Source: Chitinophagaceae bacterium (lineage in GTDB: Bacteria; Bacteroidota; Bacteroidia; Chitinophagales; Chitinophagaceae). Taken from it: DNA of 64,000 bases. Made by a program: the position numbers and the translations under genes. The stretch spans positions 62,001 to 126,000 of the forward strand of contig JAMLGT010000009.1 of NCBI GenBank assembly GCA_023957755.1. The letters run 5' to 3'. Shown here in pieces: positions 49,455 to 55,985 of this stretch. The notes beneath the pieces were generated by a model. The model saw only the letters and a program-made list of their open reading frames with translations. It had not been told where the DNA came from and did no database searches. Positions within the stretch are counted from its first letter, which is position 1. Each line of letters starts with the position of its first letter.

Positions 49455-50156
49455 ATGACTGTTAACGGGAATGGATGTTTGACCTGCAAGGTGCGTAAAT
49501 CGTCAGTATTGGAACCTTGTGCTATTGGGACACTTTCTGCTATCAGTACTTTTAAGAACAGCCGTAAATTTGAGAAAGGAGAATTTCTTTTTAAGGAAGG
49601 AGACGAGGTGAAAGGTGTTTTCTTTATTAAGAAAGGAGTAGTGAAAGTATTAAAGGAAGTGCCGGGTTACAGGACGTTGATTTTCAAAGTATGTGCAAAG
49701 GGCGAGATTGTGGGGCATCGTGGATATGATAGTAAGAATATTCATAAGTATTCCGGTGTGGCATTATCAGAAACCGAGTGTTGTTTTGTACCAATTGTTT
49801 TCTTTAAAGAAATTTTGAGAGATTCTCCTGACCTTGAGAAGCAGTTAATGGAGGAGTATCTCATAGATCTGGAGCGCATGGAGCAGAAGTCGATGTCTCT
49901 GGCCTACAAGAGTGTAAAGGAGAAAGTAGCCGAAGCTATTCTGCTCGTTTCAGGAGTATATGAATATCATGTCAAACGTAAGAGTTTTAATATTGATTTG
50001 TCCAGACAGGACTTTGCAGACCTTACCGGAACCACCAAAGAACAGGTGTCGGCAGTATTAAAAGAATTTTCCAGAGATTCCCTCATCAGATATTCCGGTA
50101 AGAAGTTCAATTTCATCGACTTAGATGCACTTAAGTCAGTAGCTGCTACCTATTGA
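49455..50156 (+). CDS. Crp/Fnr regulator with FNR-like cysteines
   Basis: 233 residues. The N-terminus carries Cys8, Cys11 and Cys22 (CLTC then EPC), followed by the beta roll (FEKGEFLFKEGDEVKGVFFIKKGVVKV) that also holds ECC, and a C-terminal HTH (LSRQDFADLTGTTKEQVSAVLKEF). Three N-terminal cysteines plus one in the roll is the arrangement that binds [4Fe-4S] in E. coli FNR, though the spacing differs (C-x2-C-x10-C). O2 or NO sensing is therefore plausible, not proven. It lies directly upstream of the respiratory cluster and is its likely regulator. Confidence 0.88.
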   Translation: MTVNGNGCLTCKVRKSSVLEPCAIGTLSAISTFKNSRKFEKGEFLFKEGDEVKGVFFIKKGVVKVLKEVPGYRTLIFKVCAKGEIVGHRGYDSKNIHKYSGVALSETECCFVPIVFFKEILRDSPDLEKQLMEEYLIDLERMEQKSMSLAYKSVKEKVAEAILLVSGVYEYHVKRKSFNIDLSRQDFADLTGTTKEQVSAVLKEFSRDSLIRYSGKKFNFIDLDALKSVAATY

Positions 50157-50197: not shown

Positions 50198-50221
50198 AAA
50201 AAGTACGAGATCGTACTTTTT
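50198..50221. promoter_or_regulatory. 24-bp palindrome between regulator and respiratory genes
   Basis: AAAAAGTACGA-GA-TCGTACTTTTT: perfect 11-bp arms with a 2-bp spacer, 42 bp after the regulator's stop. It may be an intrinsic terminator (A run, stem, T run, working in both directions) or an operator; its centre is about 70 bp before the predicted start of the respiratory transcript. Confidence 0.6.
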
Positions 50222-50316: not shown

Positions 50317-50502
50317 ATGGAAACCAAACAACCGCCGGAACAGGAAAGAGTGCCCTTCTACAGGATGATTATGGACGACTTCATGTTGTTGTTATTCTTA
50401 GGCACAACCATTTATGCTATTTTTTATCTGCTTTGGGGAGTGATGGAGTTATCCAATCTTCCTGCCATTCCTGAAGAGGTAAAAAGGGCAGTACTCAAAT
50501 AA
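50317..50502 (+). CDS. Small single-span membrane protein of the heme-copper cluster
   Basis: 61 residues: a charged N-terminal part, one hydrophobic helix (DFMLLLFLGTTIYAIFYLLWG), and a C-terminal part. Size and position before subunit II recall the tiny accessory subunits (such as subunit IIa of Thermus ba3 oxidase), but there is no recognisable family motif. It is 27 bp before the subunit II gene and is surely co-transcribed. A structural or assembly role in the complex is inferred. Confidence 0.8.
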   Translation: METKQPPEQERVPFYRMIMDDFMLLLFLGTTIYAIFYLLWGVMELSNLPAIPEEVKRAVLK

Positions 50503-50529: not shown

Positions 50530-51453
50530 ATGAGTTTACTTAGTCCTGCAGAAGGCTGGTATTACAAGAAAGTATCCAAAGATGAAAAGATGTGGATGCT
50601 GATTGCCTTGGTACTCTGCATCATGCTCTTTGTGTGGATGGTGATGTGGCACGTATATGGAAAGCAAAATCCGTCCAGTACTACTTACAAGACCAATACT
50701 ATTGAATTTGCTCAATTGACAGAAGCCTACATCAAGAAAAATATGATTGGGGTAGATAACGGCATTCCAGTGGTAAGGCCGGAACCGAACTCTGATGTCT
50801 TTCTTATGGCTGAAATGTGGCGATGGAGCCCTGTGTTAGTACTTGAAGTGAACCAGGCTTATAAAATGCATATCTCATCCAAAGACGTAGTGCACGGATT
50901 GTCTATTCAACCGGTGAACATGAACTTTCAGGTATATCCAACCTATGATTATTTACTGGAATTCAAACCAACTGAGACAGGTGAATACAAGGTAGTGTGT
51001 AACGAATTCTGCGGTATAGGTCATCATACTATGATTGGTAAGATTGTGGTAATAGAAAAAGAGGAGGACCTGAAACTCTACGGATATGAGAATATGAAAA
51101 AGGCGCCCGTTGCTGCAGTAGCGAAGGATGATAGCGCTCCTATGTCTGATGCTGATAAGGCGATTCTTGGAGAACAGGTTTATACACTTAAAGGTTGTGG
51201 TGCCTGTCACAAAACAGATGGTACGGTACTGATAGGGCCTTCATGGAAAGGCTTGTATGGGAAAGAAGAAAGAGTGAAGGAAGGGGGCAAAGTATTTAAT
51301 GTGCTTGTGGATGATGCCTATATACGAGAATCCATTCTGGAACCTACTAAAAAAGTAACGGTTGGTTTTGAGAATCTGGTAATGCCTCAGGTGCCTATGA
51401 ATGATGAGGAGTTAGACTATCTCATTGCCTTTATCAAATCCTTAAAAGACTAA
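50530..51453 (+). CDS. Heme-copper oxidase subunit II, CuA plus cytochrome c
   Basis: 307 residues. One N-terminal membrane helix (~22-42), a cupredoxin domain with a complete CuA site (His122; Cys157-x3-Cys161-x3-His165-x2-Met168, with Glu159 between the cysteines), a linker rich in Ala/Asp, and a C-terminal class I cytochrome c (Cys223-x2-Cys226-His227; Met ligand in VMPQVPM). Electrons should pass from cytochrome c to CuA and on to subunit I. The CuA site shows the complex accepts electrons from a c-type or copper donor, not directly from quinol. Confidence 0.93.
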   Translation: MSLLSPAEGWYYKKVSKDEKMWMLIALVLCIMLFVWMVMWHVYGKQNPSSTTYKTNTIEFAQLTEAYIKKNMIGVDNGIPVVRPEPNSDVFLMAEMWRWSPVLVLEVNQAYKMHISSKDVVHGLSIQPVNMNFQVYPTYDYLLEFKPTETGEYKVVCNEFCGIGHHTMIGKIVVIEKEEDLKLYGYENMKKAPVAAVAKDDSAPMSDADKAILGEQVYTLKGCGACHKTDGTVLIGPSWKGLYGKEERVKEGGKVFNVLVDDAYIRESILEPTKKVTVGFENLVMPQVPMNDEELDYLIAFIKSLKD

Positions 51454-51472: not shown

Positions 51473-53212
51473 ATGTCAAATACAATACAAGAAGCCGGAG
51501 ATTTGCAACCTGCAGCAGTAACTGCAGTCGCAGCACCTGAACAGATTTTCAGGACATGCGATATCACAGGTTTTAAAGTTGACCTTCGTTCAGAGAAACT
51601 CATCAGAGCTAATGCCGTGGCGGCAGTAGTGTCATTACTGCTGGCAGTGACAGCTGCATTATTATTGGTGTTTACCCGCTATCAGCCGGTACATCTCCTG
51701 AATGCAGAGTGGTATTATCGTCTGGTAACCTTTCATGGATTGAATGCGCTTATCTTCTGGATAATATTTTTTGAAGTAGCCGGATTATATTTTGGATCCA
51801 CAGTCATCCTCAATACGCGATTCAGTTCGCCAAAGACCGGTTGGGTGGCCTTCTGGCTGATGATTGCCGGGCTGGTAATTTCTAACTATTATATTCTGAT
51901 TGGGAAGGCTGATGTGATGCTTACATCTTACACTCCGTTGAAAGCACATCCGATGTATTACCTCGGGGTGATTTTGTTTGCTGTGGGTGCTATTATAGCC
52001 GTGGTACTCTTTTTTGGAAATCTGATGATTGCGCGAAGGGAACGGACTTATGGCGACTCTCTGCCGCTGGTGGCGTATGGATTTATGACGGCTGCTATTA
52101 TTGCATTGATCACATTAGCAACCGGAGCCATCATTTATATCCCTACATTCTTATGGTCGCTGGGGCTGGTGGACAATATTGACCCTGCCATGTATAAGCT
52201 GATTTGGTGGGGACTGGGCCACTCCTCCCAACAGATTAATGTAGCCGCCATGGTGTCTATCTGGTACATGGTATCATTCCTTACTGTTGGCGGTACCTCG
52301 ATAAATGAGAAAGTGTCACGTACTGCATTCGTCCTTTATATCCTGTTTATCTGCCTGGCTTCCGCACACCATCTGTTGACAGATCCGGGAGTAAGCAGTG
52401 CCTGGAAAGTGTGGAATACAAGCTATGCAATGTATCTGGCCGTACTGGCTTCTATGATACATGCCTTTGCAGTGCCTTCATCATTTGAGTCGGCACAACG
52501 CCGTTGGGGATATAACAAAGGATTGTTTGAATGGCTCTCGAAAGCACCGTGGGGTAATCCGGCTTTCTCTTCTATTATTTTGGCTGTGATAGGTTTCGGC
52601 TTCATTGGCGGCACTACCGGGGTGATCTTCGGGATGGAGCAGACCAATATCATAGTTCATAATACCATTGCCATACCCGGGCATTTTAAGGGTACTGTAG
52701 TTATCGGAACTACCCTTACGTTTATGGGTATCACTTATTATCTGATTCCTTTGATTTTCCGCCGAAAGATCGTGGGAATGGGGTGGGCCAAATGGCAACC
52801 TTGGCTTTTCTTTATCGGAATTGCACTATTATCCATTTCCATGATCGTACTCGGGCAACTCGGTGTGCCCCGCCGGCACTGGGATTCTACATTTTCAGGC
52901 GGACCGTTTACCTATAACTTTAACCCTGCTGTAGATTTCTTCTGGACATTAATGATGCTGGGGGGTAGTATAGCTTTTCTCTCGGTATGTATCTGGATAG
53001 GAATCGTTGTTACCTCTGTATTCTTCGGTCCGCGTGTGAATGGGCCTGAGGATATGCAGTTGAAGATTTCACCTTTAGCGCCTCCGGCTAAATCTCATAA
53101 GGGATTCGAAGCTCCGGGTACGCTGGTATTAACCTTCATATTCCTGTTGGTATTCCTTGCGCTGTTCTTCCTAAACTGGAAGTGGCTGGCTGCTACCTGG
53201 TATGTGAAATAA
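51473..53212 (+). CDS. Divergent heme-copper subunit I (b(o/a)3-like; NO reductase candidate)
   Basis: 579 residues, about 13 membrane helices. By eye it aligns with Thermus ba3 subunit I. Present: His88 (low-spin heme, FHGLNAL), His250 and the pair His299-His300 (CuB, SAHHLLTDPG), His404 (high-spin heme, PGHFK). Absent: the crosslinked Tyr four residues after the first CuB His, here Gln254 (GHSSQQ instead of GHPxVY), and the second low-spin-heme His, here Lys406 (GHFK instead of GHFH). Loss of that Tyr is a known mark of nitric oxide reductases versus oxygen reductases. The enzyme could be a CuA-type NOR, but the reaction is inferred. Canonical oxidases of this fold use O2. Confidence 0.9.
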   Translation: MSNTIQEAGDLQPAAVTAVAAPEQIFRTCDITGFKVDLRSEKLIRANAVAAVVSLLLAVTAALLLVFTRYQPVHLLNAEWYYRLVTFHGLNALIFWIIFFEVAGLYFGSTVILNTRFSSPKTGWVAFWLMIAGLVISNYYILIGKADVMLTSYTPLKAHPMYYLGVILFAVGAIIAVVLFFGNLMIARRERTYGDSLPLVAYGFMTAAIIALITLATGAIIYIPTFLWSLGLVDNIDPAMYKLIWWGLGHSSQQINVAAMVSIWYMVSFLTVGGTSINEKVSRTAFVLYILFICLASAHHLLTDPGVSSAWKVWNTSYAMYLAVLASMIHAFAVPSSFESAQRRWGYNKGLFEWLSKAPWGNPAFSSIILAVIGFGFIGGTTGVIFGMEQTNIIVHNTIAIPGHFKGTVVIGTTLTFMGITYYLIPLIFRRKIVGMGWAKWQPWLFFIGIALLSISMIVLGQLGVPRRHWDSTFSGGPFTYNFNPAVDFFWTLMMLGGSIAFLSVCIWIGIVVTSVFFGPRVNGPEDMQLKISPLAPPAKSHKGFEAPGTLVLTFIFLLVFLALFFLNWKWLAATWYVK

Positions 53213-53272: not shown

Positions 53273-54028
53273 ATGAGTAAGTGGTTTGTATATGTATTGT
53301 CGGTTTTCTTTTTAATCCTTTCGGGATTCAGACTTCCTGATGAAAGAAAACATCTGGGGCGCACAGTACCGGATGCCGTGTTGATAGATGCTGAAGGCAA
53401 TACGATAAAATTATATACACTATTACAAGGAAAGCCACTGATCATTTCCCCTATCTATACTAAGTGCCCTTCAATATGTGGGGTGGTGAGTAATGGCACA
53501 AAAGAAGCTGTGGCCAAATTGGGTACACTTGGAAAGGATTTCAATGTAATCAGCTTTTCGTTTGATAGTACTGATACCCCAAAAGACCTGAAAGCGTACG
53601 AAAAGCGATGGAAAATGGATGGAAATCATTGGCGGACAGTAACAGCGGATAATTATACGATTCATCAACTCATGTCAGCAGTCGGATTCGAGTATGATGC
53701 AGACACTGTCCTGAAGCAATTTAACCACCCGGCCTTTCTGGTAGTTGTATCGCCCGAAGGCAGAATTTCCAGATTCGTATATGGAGTCAGTCCGTCTCCA
53801 CGCGATCTGCGCCTGGCCGTGCTCGGTGCTAAAGCTGAGAAGACAACACCCGGATTATTTGCAGGAATCTATCTGAGGTGCTTCGGTTATGATCCGCTAC
53901 TTAGAACCTACAAAGTGGATTGGCGGTTTATTATCTCTACCTCAGCCGGATTCATCATAGTATTTTTTATGGCTACCCTGTTTGTAAAATCATTCATTAT
54001 TTCAAAAGCTAACCATGACAGCACATAA
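53273..54028 (+). CDS. SCO1/SenC-family copper chaperone
   Basis: 251 residues. N-terminal membrane anchor (VYVLSVFFLILSG), a thioredoxin-like domain with copper ligands Cys65 and Cys69 (KCPSICG) and His152 (NHPAF), and a second membrane helix near the C-terminus (STSAGFIIVFFMATLF), which is not usual for SCO. It should deliver copper to the CuA site of the subunit II encoded just upstream. Its 3' end overlaps the next gene by 14 bp. Confidence 0.92.
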   Translation: MSKWFVYVLSVFFLILSGFRLPDERKHLGRTVPDAVLIDAEGNTIKLYTLLQGKPLIISPIYTKCPSICGVVSNGTKEAVAKLGTLGKDFNVISFSFDSTDTPKDLKAYEKRWKMDGNHWRTVTADNYTIHQLMSAVGFEYDADTVLKQFNHPAFLVVVSPEGRISRFVYGVSPSPRDLRLAVLGAKAEKTTPGLFAGIYLRCFGYDPLLRTYKVDWRFIISTSAGFIIVFFMATLFVKSFIISKANHDST

Positions 54029-55985
54029 CGACATATCACAATCGATTAAAGTAAAGAATAAGGGGCATCAGGTATTCCAGAAACTGGCAGGTTGGCTTGG
54101 GCGCATTTTCTCTACTGAACTTAATCCACTATACAATCTGGGTGGCCTGACGGTGCTGATGTTCACAATTGCGTGCATTTCGGGTATTTATATTTTTATT
54201 TTTTACAACATCAATCCGCGCCAGGCATGGGAATCTGTAGAGGCCATTTCGGGTAATTTCTTTAATGGCTGGATGCGAAACATTCACAGGTATTCGTCAG
54301 ACCTGCTGGTAGTTTTTATCCTGCTGCATTTGGCACACACACTCTTCACCAGTAAGTTTAAGAGACTCATTTCCTGGATCAGCGGGGTAATCTCTTTTCT
54401 TGTGGTAGTTACCATCGGGGTGACCGGATTTATTTTGGTGTGGGACCAGAAAGCAAAACTCACTGGTTATCTTACAGCTAAACTCTTTTCAGGCCTGCCT
54501 ATATTTGATCCATCCATTATGGGGGCATTTTTACTCAACGACCTGAATGTGGTGGGAGGTTTTTTTAAAGTAGCGTTGTTTGGGCATATTGCACTTTCTC
54601 TGGTGACAGTGATTATCATTTGGATTCACGTGTTGAGAATTTCGAAACCTAAGATATTCCCTCCTAAAAAACTGATTCTATATGCTTCGATCGCACTGGG
54701 TATTATTGCAATTATTTTTCCTGTAAAGAGCGATCCGCCGGCCCAGATCACCAATCTGCCTGCTGAAACAACATTTGACTGGTTCTATTATTTTGGATAT
54801 TACCTCATGAAGGTGTTTAGTGTGTGGCAAAATTGGGCAATATTGATTGGGTCAGGGTTGCTACTAAGCATTCTTCCTTTTCTGTTACGGAGAAAAGACA
54901 GACCTCCGGTACATATTGACCTTGATAAGTGTAATGCGTGCAACCTGTGTGCGTATGATTGTCCGTATGATGCTATTGATATGCTGATTCATAATGGCGA
55001 AAGAAAAGCGATTCTTTCTCCGGATAAGTGTGTCGGTTGCACCATCTGTATCGGCTCCTGTGCAGAACATGCAATTACCCATCCGGAGTTTCCTATTTAT
55101 AATATTCAGCCTGCTCCTGCCCGGGATATGACTGTTTTTTCATGCAGCTTTTTTCCCGAAGCTAAATTTCCGCATGGCCTAAATGTGAAACAATATAAAG
55201 TGCCCTGTCTTGGCAGCGTCATGGCCAAAGATGTACAAAAGATGCTGGATAATAACACCGACAAGGTGGCATTGCTTGGGTGCGAAGATTGTTATTACAG
55301 ATATGGTAAAACGTGGGCTGTAAATAAGTTGTTGCATAAACGAGCTCCGGCATTCTCCAGAAGATATGATGCTGCCCGGTTACGATTGTTTACACTTAAC
55401 CAATACACACCGGAGCGCTTAAGAGAGTTTGCCGACGAGAAAGAGACTGTAAAAGAAAAGGAAACCCAGATAGTGGATTATCACAAATCTAAGCCTGTGC
55501 TCTCTGTGCTTGTGTTAGCAGCTTTCTTTGCATTGTTTATTCCGTTTACCAGTACTAAAGTGCGCTTCTTCAATCCGGAAGATAAAACGCTGGTGGTAAA
55601 TTTTAAGTATATCTCTAGTCCGACCGAATTCGAGCAGCACACTTCTACGATGACTCACATGCGTTCCGTGGCCCCCGTGGTGAAGAAGCGGAGCCCGGTA
55701 GTGCTTAGGATTTATGCTTCGGAAAGCGGGAAGTTGTTGTTTGAAAAGAGTTATACACCACGCGGATTGAGGCATGACATCGCGATGTTTATATTCAGCC
55801 AGATGAATGTAGAGGAGGATAAGGTGGATGTGATATTGCAGGAGACTGAAGGAGAAAAGAAAACGCTCTCCCTAAAGGATATTCCGGTGGTAAAGGGGGA
55901 TGGCACTTTTGTAATTCTTAATGAAGGGAGGTTGGAAGTAGCTAAAGAGGCAGCAACTGAAGAAGTTTCTTATGACGTACGTTAG
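54015..55985 (+). CDS. Cytochrome b / ferredoxin / MvhD-like fusion
   Basis: 656 residues. (1) Cytochrome b N-terminal domain, four helices, with two heme-ligand pairs His91/His105 and His191/His205 (both x13 spacing); (2) two more helices (~222-236, ~272-292); (3) a ferredoxin-like pair of [4Fe-4S] motifs (Cys306-309-312-316 and Cys339-342-345-349); (4) a segment with Cys377, Cys398, Cys423 and Cys426 that resembles MvhD/FlpD; (5) another helix (~495-515) and a C-terminal soluble domain. No Rieske protein is nearby. It could link a quinone pool to a soluble redox partner. It overlaps the SCO gene by 14 bp. Confidence 0.88.
   Translation: MTAHNDISQSIKVKNKGHQVFQKLAGWLGRIFSTELNPLYNLGGLTVLMFTIACISGIYIFIFYNINPRQAWESVEAISGNFFNGWMRNIHRYSSDLLVVFILLHLAHTLFTSKFKRLISWISGVISFLVVVTIGVTGFILVWDQKAKLTGYLTAKLFSGLPIFDPSIMGAFLLNDLNVVGGFFKVALFGHIALSLVTVIIIWIHVLRISKPKIFPPKKLILYASIALGIIAIIFPVKSDPPAQITNLPAETTFDWFYYFGYYLMKVFSVWQNWAILIGSGLLLSILPFLLRRKDRPPVHIDLDKCNACNLCAYDCPYDAIDMLIHNGERKAILSPDKCVGCTICIGSCAEHAITHPEFPIYNIQPAPARDMTVFSCSFFPEAKFPHGLNVKQYKVPCLGSVMAKDVQKMLDNNTDKVALLGCEDCYYRYGKTWAVNKLLHKRAPAFSRRYDAARLRLFTLNQYTPERLREFADEKETVKEKETQIVDYHKSKPVLSVLVLAAFFALFIPFTSTKVRFFNPEDKTLVVNFKYISSPTEFEQHTSTMTHMRSVAPVVKKRSPVVLRIYASESGKLLFEKSYTPRGLRHDIAMFIFSQMNVEEDKVDVILQETEGEKKTLSLKDIPVVKGDGTFVILNEGRLEVAKEAATEEVSYDVR

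Follow-up and report, generated by a model that had tools for sequence, protein, structure and literature searches.

The window analysed here, a stretch of 64,000 nucleotides from a Chitinophagaceae genome, carries a gene for subunit I of a heme-copper enzyme that departs from the O2 reductases at two positions. Gln254 stands where these enzymes have a cross-linked active-site Tyr, and Lys406 stands where they have the second axial His of the low-spin heme b. The questions raised by this locus are which reaction such an enzyme would catalyse and which of the two substitutions is out of the ordinary. O2 reductases use the active-site Tyr to split O2, and the two axial His residues of the low-spin heme are, to our knowledge, treated as fixed across the heme-copper superfamily. 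The first-pass annotation of the locus gave both substitutions equal weight; on comparison of sequences, its emphasis on Lys406 holds and that on Gln254 does not. Gln254 is a published signature of the eNOR family and is not the novelty; of the two oddities, only Lys406 is unusual. The reading that is considered probable is an eNOR-lineage, CuA-dependent NO reductase with a remodelled low-spin heme, the ligands of which would probably be His and Lys.

Table 1. Features of the locus, in window coordinates
Feature	Position	Strand	Evidence
CRP/FNR-family regulator, upstream	49455..50156	+	homologs in 31/55 Lys-type and 1/25 His-type loci
61-aa single-helix protein, candidate conserved small subunit	50317..50502	+	tblastn conservation
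CuA subunit II with fused C-terminal cytochrome c domain (CGACH)	50530..51453	+	CuA ligands H122, C157, E159, C161, H165, M168
Predicted eNOR-type heme-copper subunit I, 579 aa, Lys at low-spin heme ligand position	51473..53212	+	ORF list, Pfam, phmmer, alignment
His88 codon, first axial low-spin heme ligand by alignment, helix II	51734..51736	+	His in 197/197 rows counted
Gln254 codon CAG, cross-linked Tyr position	52232..52234	+	phmmer alignment, row residues, codon count
Lys406 codon AAG, second axial low-spin heme His position, helix X	52688..52690	+	alignment, rows, codons, tree
SCO1/SenC copper chaperone	53273..54028	+	same-strand homolog in 54/55 Lys-type contig loci
Cytochrome b / two 4Fe-4S / FlpD-like fusion protein	54015..55985	+	homolog in 54/55 Lys-type and 19/25 His-type contig loci

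Subunit I and its family assignment

The subunit I ORF has a Pfam COX1 match of 223.6 bits, and its top phmmer match among solved structures is the ba3 oxidase of Thermus thermophilus (E ~3e-48). The active-site stretches align with this oxidase without gaps, GHSSQQ lying over GHPIVY and PGHFK over PGHFH; in the alignment, Gln254 therefore matches the cross-linked Tyr, and Lys406 matches the second His ligand of heme b (presumably Y237 and H386 of ba3), as the annotation had stated. All the residues that it had named, H88, H250, H299, H300, H404, Q254 and K406, are read directly in the translation. The His residues are kept in 81/81 relatives that have Gln254 and Lys406 (Lys-type) and in 102/102 that have Gln254 and His at position 406 (His-type). 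With a COX1 fold, three CuB His and one high-spin heme His, subunit I is, by its sequence, a B-type heme-copper protein in which the CuB and high-spin-heme His are present. In its DNA, the nearest relative (L041) is 92% identical over 11.5 kb. The subunit I genes of the two differ at 135 nucleotides, 125 of them at third positions, and at two amino acids, which indicates strong purifying selection on subunit I.

An AlphaFold2 model of subunit I, predicted from 33 aligned sequences, has a mean pLDDT of 81.1 and a pTM of 0.84. Its best Foldseek matches are ba3 oxidases, 3s8f_A being the first (TM-score 0.72 by query length, rmsd 7.5). The likeness to the Thermus enzyme extends to sequence, fold and the possession of a CuA subunit II, whereas the window protein lacks the active-site Tyr and has Lys at H386, Asn at W239 and His at the T312 position, in what we take to be the ba3 numbering. 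The NCBIfam matches of subunit I are to oxidase models only and lie far below the cut-offs of these models, so the protein is easily misnamed or missed.

Residues were compared over 199 rows of relatives, with identities given to the window protein. Position 254 is occupied by Gln in 185 rows and by Tyr in 14, and by no other residue; the 14 Tyr rows are the most distant, at 27–30% identity. According to Table A4 of PMC8756737, the residue at the Tyr position is Gln in eNOR, Asn in sNOR and bNOR/CuANOR, Asp in gNOR and Glu in cNOR and qNOR; the window protein shares the residue of eNOR and differs from all the others. PMC11388526 describes eNOR as biochemically characterised, and sNOR, gNOR and bNOR/CuANOR as relatives of B-family oxidases for which NO reduction is proposed or shown. 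In Ardenticatena maritima, eNOR is encoded in one operon with NirK (PMC4653789), and eNOR is counted among the denitrification NO reductases (PMC8114936, PMC12569097).

The gene order is also that of eNOR, with a CuA (cupredoxin) subunit II, the CuA ligands of which are complete, encoded directly upstream. The likeness to eNOR, of which a characterised example is reportedly that of Rhodothermus marinus, further includes the three CuB His and the high-spin heme His. The main difference is that the Lys-type has Lys, not His, as the residue aligned with the second ligand of the low-spin heme.

The cross-linked Tyr of B-family oxidases, located on helix VI, is replaced by Gln254. In the C family (cbb3), we take the cross-linked Tyr to lie on helix VII, six residues before HH; judged against a cbb3-like protein of the same genome, this position is I293 in the window protein. 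A Tyr contributed from helix VII as in cbb3 is thus rejected, and the case that the annotation had named as contrary to its proposal, a Tyr supplied by another helix, did not occur. An ordinary ba3-type O2 reductase, to which the nearest solved relatives point both by sequence and by fold, is extremely unlikely, as Tyr is absent from both known positions and the Gln rows are split from the Tyr-bearing rows with a support of 100 (14 Tyr rows in the first tree and four in the second). In both trees, the homologs fall outside the Tyr-bearing, ba3-like rows; the annotation's other contrary case, a grouping within O2-reducing ba3 families, was thus not seen.

The enzyme is most likely an NO reductase that depends on CuA and, by residue signature and gene order, belongs to the eNOR type. 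This predicted activity, which the annotation had proposed, is supported by the complete CuA ligands, the absence of Tyr from helices VI and VII, the eNOR-type Gln and the nirS or other denitrification genes that neighbour some of the related loci. Subunit II would take up electrons at its cytochrome c domain and CuA centre, both of which are seen in the sequence, and the electrons would then pass through the low-spin heme b to the high-spin heme (His404) and CuB (His250, His299 and His300). At this heme/CuB site, two NO molecules would be joined to give N2O. Gln254 would replace a Tyr that is needless where no O–O bond is split.

Distribution and origin of Lys406

Among the 185 Gln rows, position 406 is Lys in 81 and His in 102. 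The two uncounted rows are L067, in which the codon is an unreadable AAN, and L124, a fragment of the window's own gene that lacks residue 406. Identity to the window protein is 63–100% for Lys rows and 40–59% for His rows, and these ranges are separate. Every row at least 63% identical with a readable position 406 has Lys (81 rows, 67 distinct sequences), so that both Gln254 and Lys406, the conservation of which in close homologs the annotation had left to be checked, are retained. Over residues 30–440, the Lys-type comprises 67 distinct sequences and the His-type 96, with the window and the own-genome copies L003 and L007 counted as one. The Tyr rows have His at position 406 in 14/14 cases. 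In total, the second ligand position of the low-spin heme is Lys in 81 rows vs His in 116 others; in place of the two His typical of the superfamily, the Lys-type has, by alignment, one His and a Lys.

In the 80 loci besides the window, Lys406 is encoded by AAG (42) or AAA (38), whereas His at this position, Tyr rows included, is encoded by CAC (85) or CAT (31). The passage from His to Lys therefore took at least two nucleotide changes. A sequencing error or a decayed gene is ruled out by this requirement, by the 67 distinct Lys-type sequences and by the purifying selection on subunit I.

In the first tree, the Lys rows and L067 form one clade of 61 (SH-aLRT 100), several long branches being flagged; a His-type sequence filed as Thermaerobacter marianensis (L100) adjoins this clade (94). 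The second tree, with 82 representatives and the seven trait columns removed, also contains the Lys-type rows, 13 in number, as one clade (100/100) and has a single change of state at position 406 among the Gln rows. His406 was replaced by Lys once, in the Lys clade, on a branch that also saw changes elsewhere in the protein.

The named hosts of the Lys-type belong to Bacteroidota (Kapaibacteria included) and Aquificota, together with 'bacterium HR21'. Among the hosts of the His-type are Gemmatimonadota, Bdellovibrionota, Acidobacteriota, Rokubacteria, Myxococcota, Kiritimatiellota and Pseudomonadota. In the window's class, a match was found at the limits set in 5/295 genomes, the own genome among the five, and the four relatives from this class are all Lys-type. 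At the limits set for the other phyla, Aquificota (the phylum of L090) gave matches in 19/136 genomes, with 19/19 loci Lys-type. Matches were found in 58/249 genomes of Gemmatimonadota (the phylum of L095), of which 30/58 were fetched and 30/30 proved His-type. All matches were likewise His-type in the phylum of L100 (3/348 genomes; 3/3) and in Pseudomonadota, the phylum of L116 (30/398 genomes; 30/30). In the window's phylum, 46/395 genomes matched at a looser threshold of 1e-25, with Tyr-type homologs included, and 30/54 places were fetched. This phylum has both types, His-type sequences being found in 14 loci (L013–L026). Seven of these, L020–L026, constitute a divergent Gln-type group with 40–42% identity, in which the helix II His is part of HAWNL or HAWSL and position 406 is His.

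The accessible parts of the literature on Lys ligands of heme-copper low-spin hemes and on eNOR contain no description of the Lys variant; the principal eNOR study lies outside this coverage, and an earlier description is possible. The main eNOR paper is reportedly that of Murali and colleagues in PNAS, 2024.

Ligation of the low-spin heme

The Arg pair R467/R468, which we take to be the heme propionate pair, is kept in 79/81 Lys-type rows, the remaining two being gaps. Together with His88, kept in 81/81, this pair suggests that the low-spin heme is probably still bound in the Lys-type. Lys406 would occupy the sixth position as the second axial ligand of this heme, and His88/Lys406 ligation would shift the heme potential and provide a ligand that can be protonated off. 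A Lys in place of His as a heme iron ligand is present in another nitrogen-oxide enzyme, the cytochrome c nitrite reductase NrfA; however, NrfA is an unrelated protein containing heme c, and the heme concerned is catalytic rather than a low-spin relay. Whether the Lys clade in Bacteroidota (Kapaibacteria included) and Aquificota as a whole comprises NO reductases with a native His/Lys low-spin b heme serving as an electron relay is, judged from the sequences, an evenly balanced matter.

Several other positions changed on the Lys branch. At position 92, which follows His88 by four residues or one turn, the Lys-type has A/T/G in 81/81 rows and the His-type M/L/V/I in 102/102. Position 58 is Ala (72) or Gly (9) in the Lys-type vs Gly in all 102 His-type rows, and position 444 is Trp in 81/81 vs Tyr in 90, Trp in 11 and Phe in one. 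In the AlphaFold2 model, positions 58, 92, 406 and 444 fall in helices 38–69, 78–111, 400–429 and 436–462, respectively. These are taken as helices I, II, X and XI, which line the low-spin heme. Changes at positions 388 (Met in 81/81 Lys-type and 0/102 His-type rows), 391 (Thr in 81/81 vs Ile/Leu/Val) and 333 (Ala in 81/81 vs Thr in 93, Ala in seven and Ser in two) are located away from this heme. Position 333 presumably corresponds to T315 of the ba3 proton channel, and Ala at this position is a second difference between the Lys-type and eNOR, for which one proton channel is predicted; Y265 and S327, presumably equivalent to Y248 and S309 of the same channel, are kept. As all these co-changes descend from one ancestor on one branch, they suggest rather than establish a coupling with Lys406.

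The co-changes also bear on a rather unlikely alternative, an eNOR-type NO reductase in which Lys406 is off the iron. The heme would be five-coordinate, held through His88, and the Lys would be engaged in an ion pair or hydrogen bond. Lys is often protonated, and two residues that closely precede helix I, D30 and D37, show higher conservation in the Lys-type (61/61 and 60/61) than in the His-type. A buried, charged and unligated Lys facing the heme would, however, be costly, and among the conserved positions listed there is no Lys-type-specific Asp or Glu within helices I, II, X and XI.

Axial ligation might also have been taken over by another residue, for example the clade-specific Met388. 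In the AlphaFold2 model, M388 ends the helix comprising residues 363–389, well before helix 400–429, which makes this replacement very improbable in spite of its strict conservation; the region of M388 presumably lies near the high-spin heme and subunit II. A His moved to the low-spin heme, which the annotation had considered as a possible objection, finds no counterpart either: the comparison of conserved positions in the subunit I rows revealed no conserved Lys-type His lacking from the His-type.

A change in function of the whole clade, to NO sensing, electron relay or another small-molecule reduction with loss of normal heme b ligation, would be in line with the replacement of a ligand that is conserved in all other rows examined and with the uniform Ala at the T315 position. 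Since the other catalytic His, CuA and SCO1 are kept and nirS or nosD loci are found in both types, such a change is considered improbable.

If the preferred reading, an eNOR-lineage NO reductase with a His/Lys low-spin heme, is true, this b heme would be a naturally occurring exception to the superfamily's bis-His rule, and it might control electron delivery as a ligand switch that depends on pH or redox state. A Lys kept across two phyla would be a natural experiment on what a low-spin heme must do, for which Lys-type and His-type eNOR offer a clean comparison.

Gene neighbourhood and denitrification context

Neighbouring genes were counted in 80 contig loci, the best 80 of 138 relatives found, comprising 55 Lys-type (L067 included) and 25 His-type loci. 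Subunit II has a homolog in 53/55 Lys-type and 23/25 His-type contig loci. The Lys-type misses, SCO1 in L092, the cytochrome b fusion in L089 and subunit II in L060 and L089, fall in loci cut by the end of a contig or stretch. The flanks of His-type loci vary, the weakest matches to the cytochrome b fusion being those of L112 and L106, and homologs of this fusion are found on the opposite strand in several loci. The small ORF upstream of subunit II was matched by tblastn (E up to 1e-3, with any place in the locus accepted) in 77/81 Lys-type loci, with L067 counted as Lys-type, and in 67/102 His-type loci; it was matched in 51/51 Lys-type contig loci with more than 1500 bases upstream.

The CuA ligands are conserved in both types at the thresholds used, and a comparison of 76 Lys-type with 99 His-type rows revealed no position of subunit II that is clade-specific at the threshold applied. 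A CXXCH motif is present in subunit II in 8/13 Lys-type loci checked and in 0/17 His-type loci. The cytochrome c motif is therefore a mark of some Lys-type loci only, and constitutes a third difference from eNOR.

The cytochrome b fusion protein has a cytochrome b6-like membrane domain and accompanies many Lys-type and His-type eNOR loci; both 4Fe-4S motifs are present in 13/13 Lys-type loci checked. Among the best 25 of 35 NCBIfam matches listed, no model reached its cut-off. This protein may be a dedicated quinol-side electron donor.

At 50198–50221, just after the CRP/FNR gene, lies an inverted repeat with perfect 11-bp arms around a 2-base centre, AAAAAGTACGA-GA-TCGTACTTTTT, a candidate terminator or operator. 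In 55 rows, the 350 bases that precede the small ORF were searched for FNR/CRP-like palindromes. The pattern TTG-N8-CAA occurs in 7/55 rows, against a shuffled mean of 6.15, and TTGA-N6-TCAA in 3/55, against a shuffled mean of 0.6; the window's own 350 bases contain none of the patterns tried.

Genes of denitrification are found in loci of both types. An ORF for NirS, with a cytochrome d1 domain, is present in the Lys-type loci L080, L084, L085 (partial), L088, L089, L090 and L098, of which L084 and L098 are close kin, and in the His-type locus L103. NirK-like multicopper/cytochrome c fusion proteins are encoded in L071 (Lys-type) and in L104 and L114 (His-type), and NosD in L072, L091 and L092 (Lys-type) and L113 (His-type). 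Nitrite reductase candidates, taken from one blastp cluster with its short member L087 left out, occur in at least 11/80 loci, several of which are short. The record titles of some relatives, two of them with 'SlAct', hint at activated sludge, where the enzyme may be relevant to the formation of N2O.

The own genome encodes NirK (361.9 bits; cut-off 296.3) and NosZ (941.8 bits; cut-off 625), and a search of it gave no cytochrome d1 match. It contains six COX1 homologs. In a COX1-family protein of this genome (L209:10266-11669; C13:24308-25534), a Ser (SYGSMV) is located at the helix VI CuB His, and a small cytochrome c gene directly precedes its gene. A COX1-family protein of a second genome (L065:4022-5428) also has Ser at this position; both proteins seem to lack one CuB ligand. 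Contig C13 further carries a second heme-copper enzyme (L208:6504-7988) accompanied by L208:8002-8583 and L208:5825-6469, with a COX2-type subunit II and SCO1; its Tyr position is occupied by Asn (FGHMLVN), which is listed for sNOR and CuANOR. Contig C3 encodes a NorB-like protein (L005:1468-3393) with a Glu close to the His of helix VI (VVHYWVE), and on this account the number of NO reductases in the own genome may be three or more.
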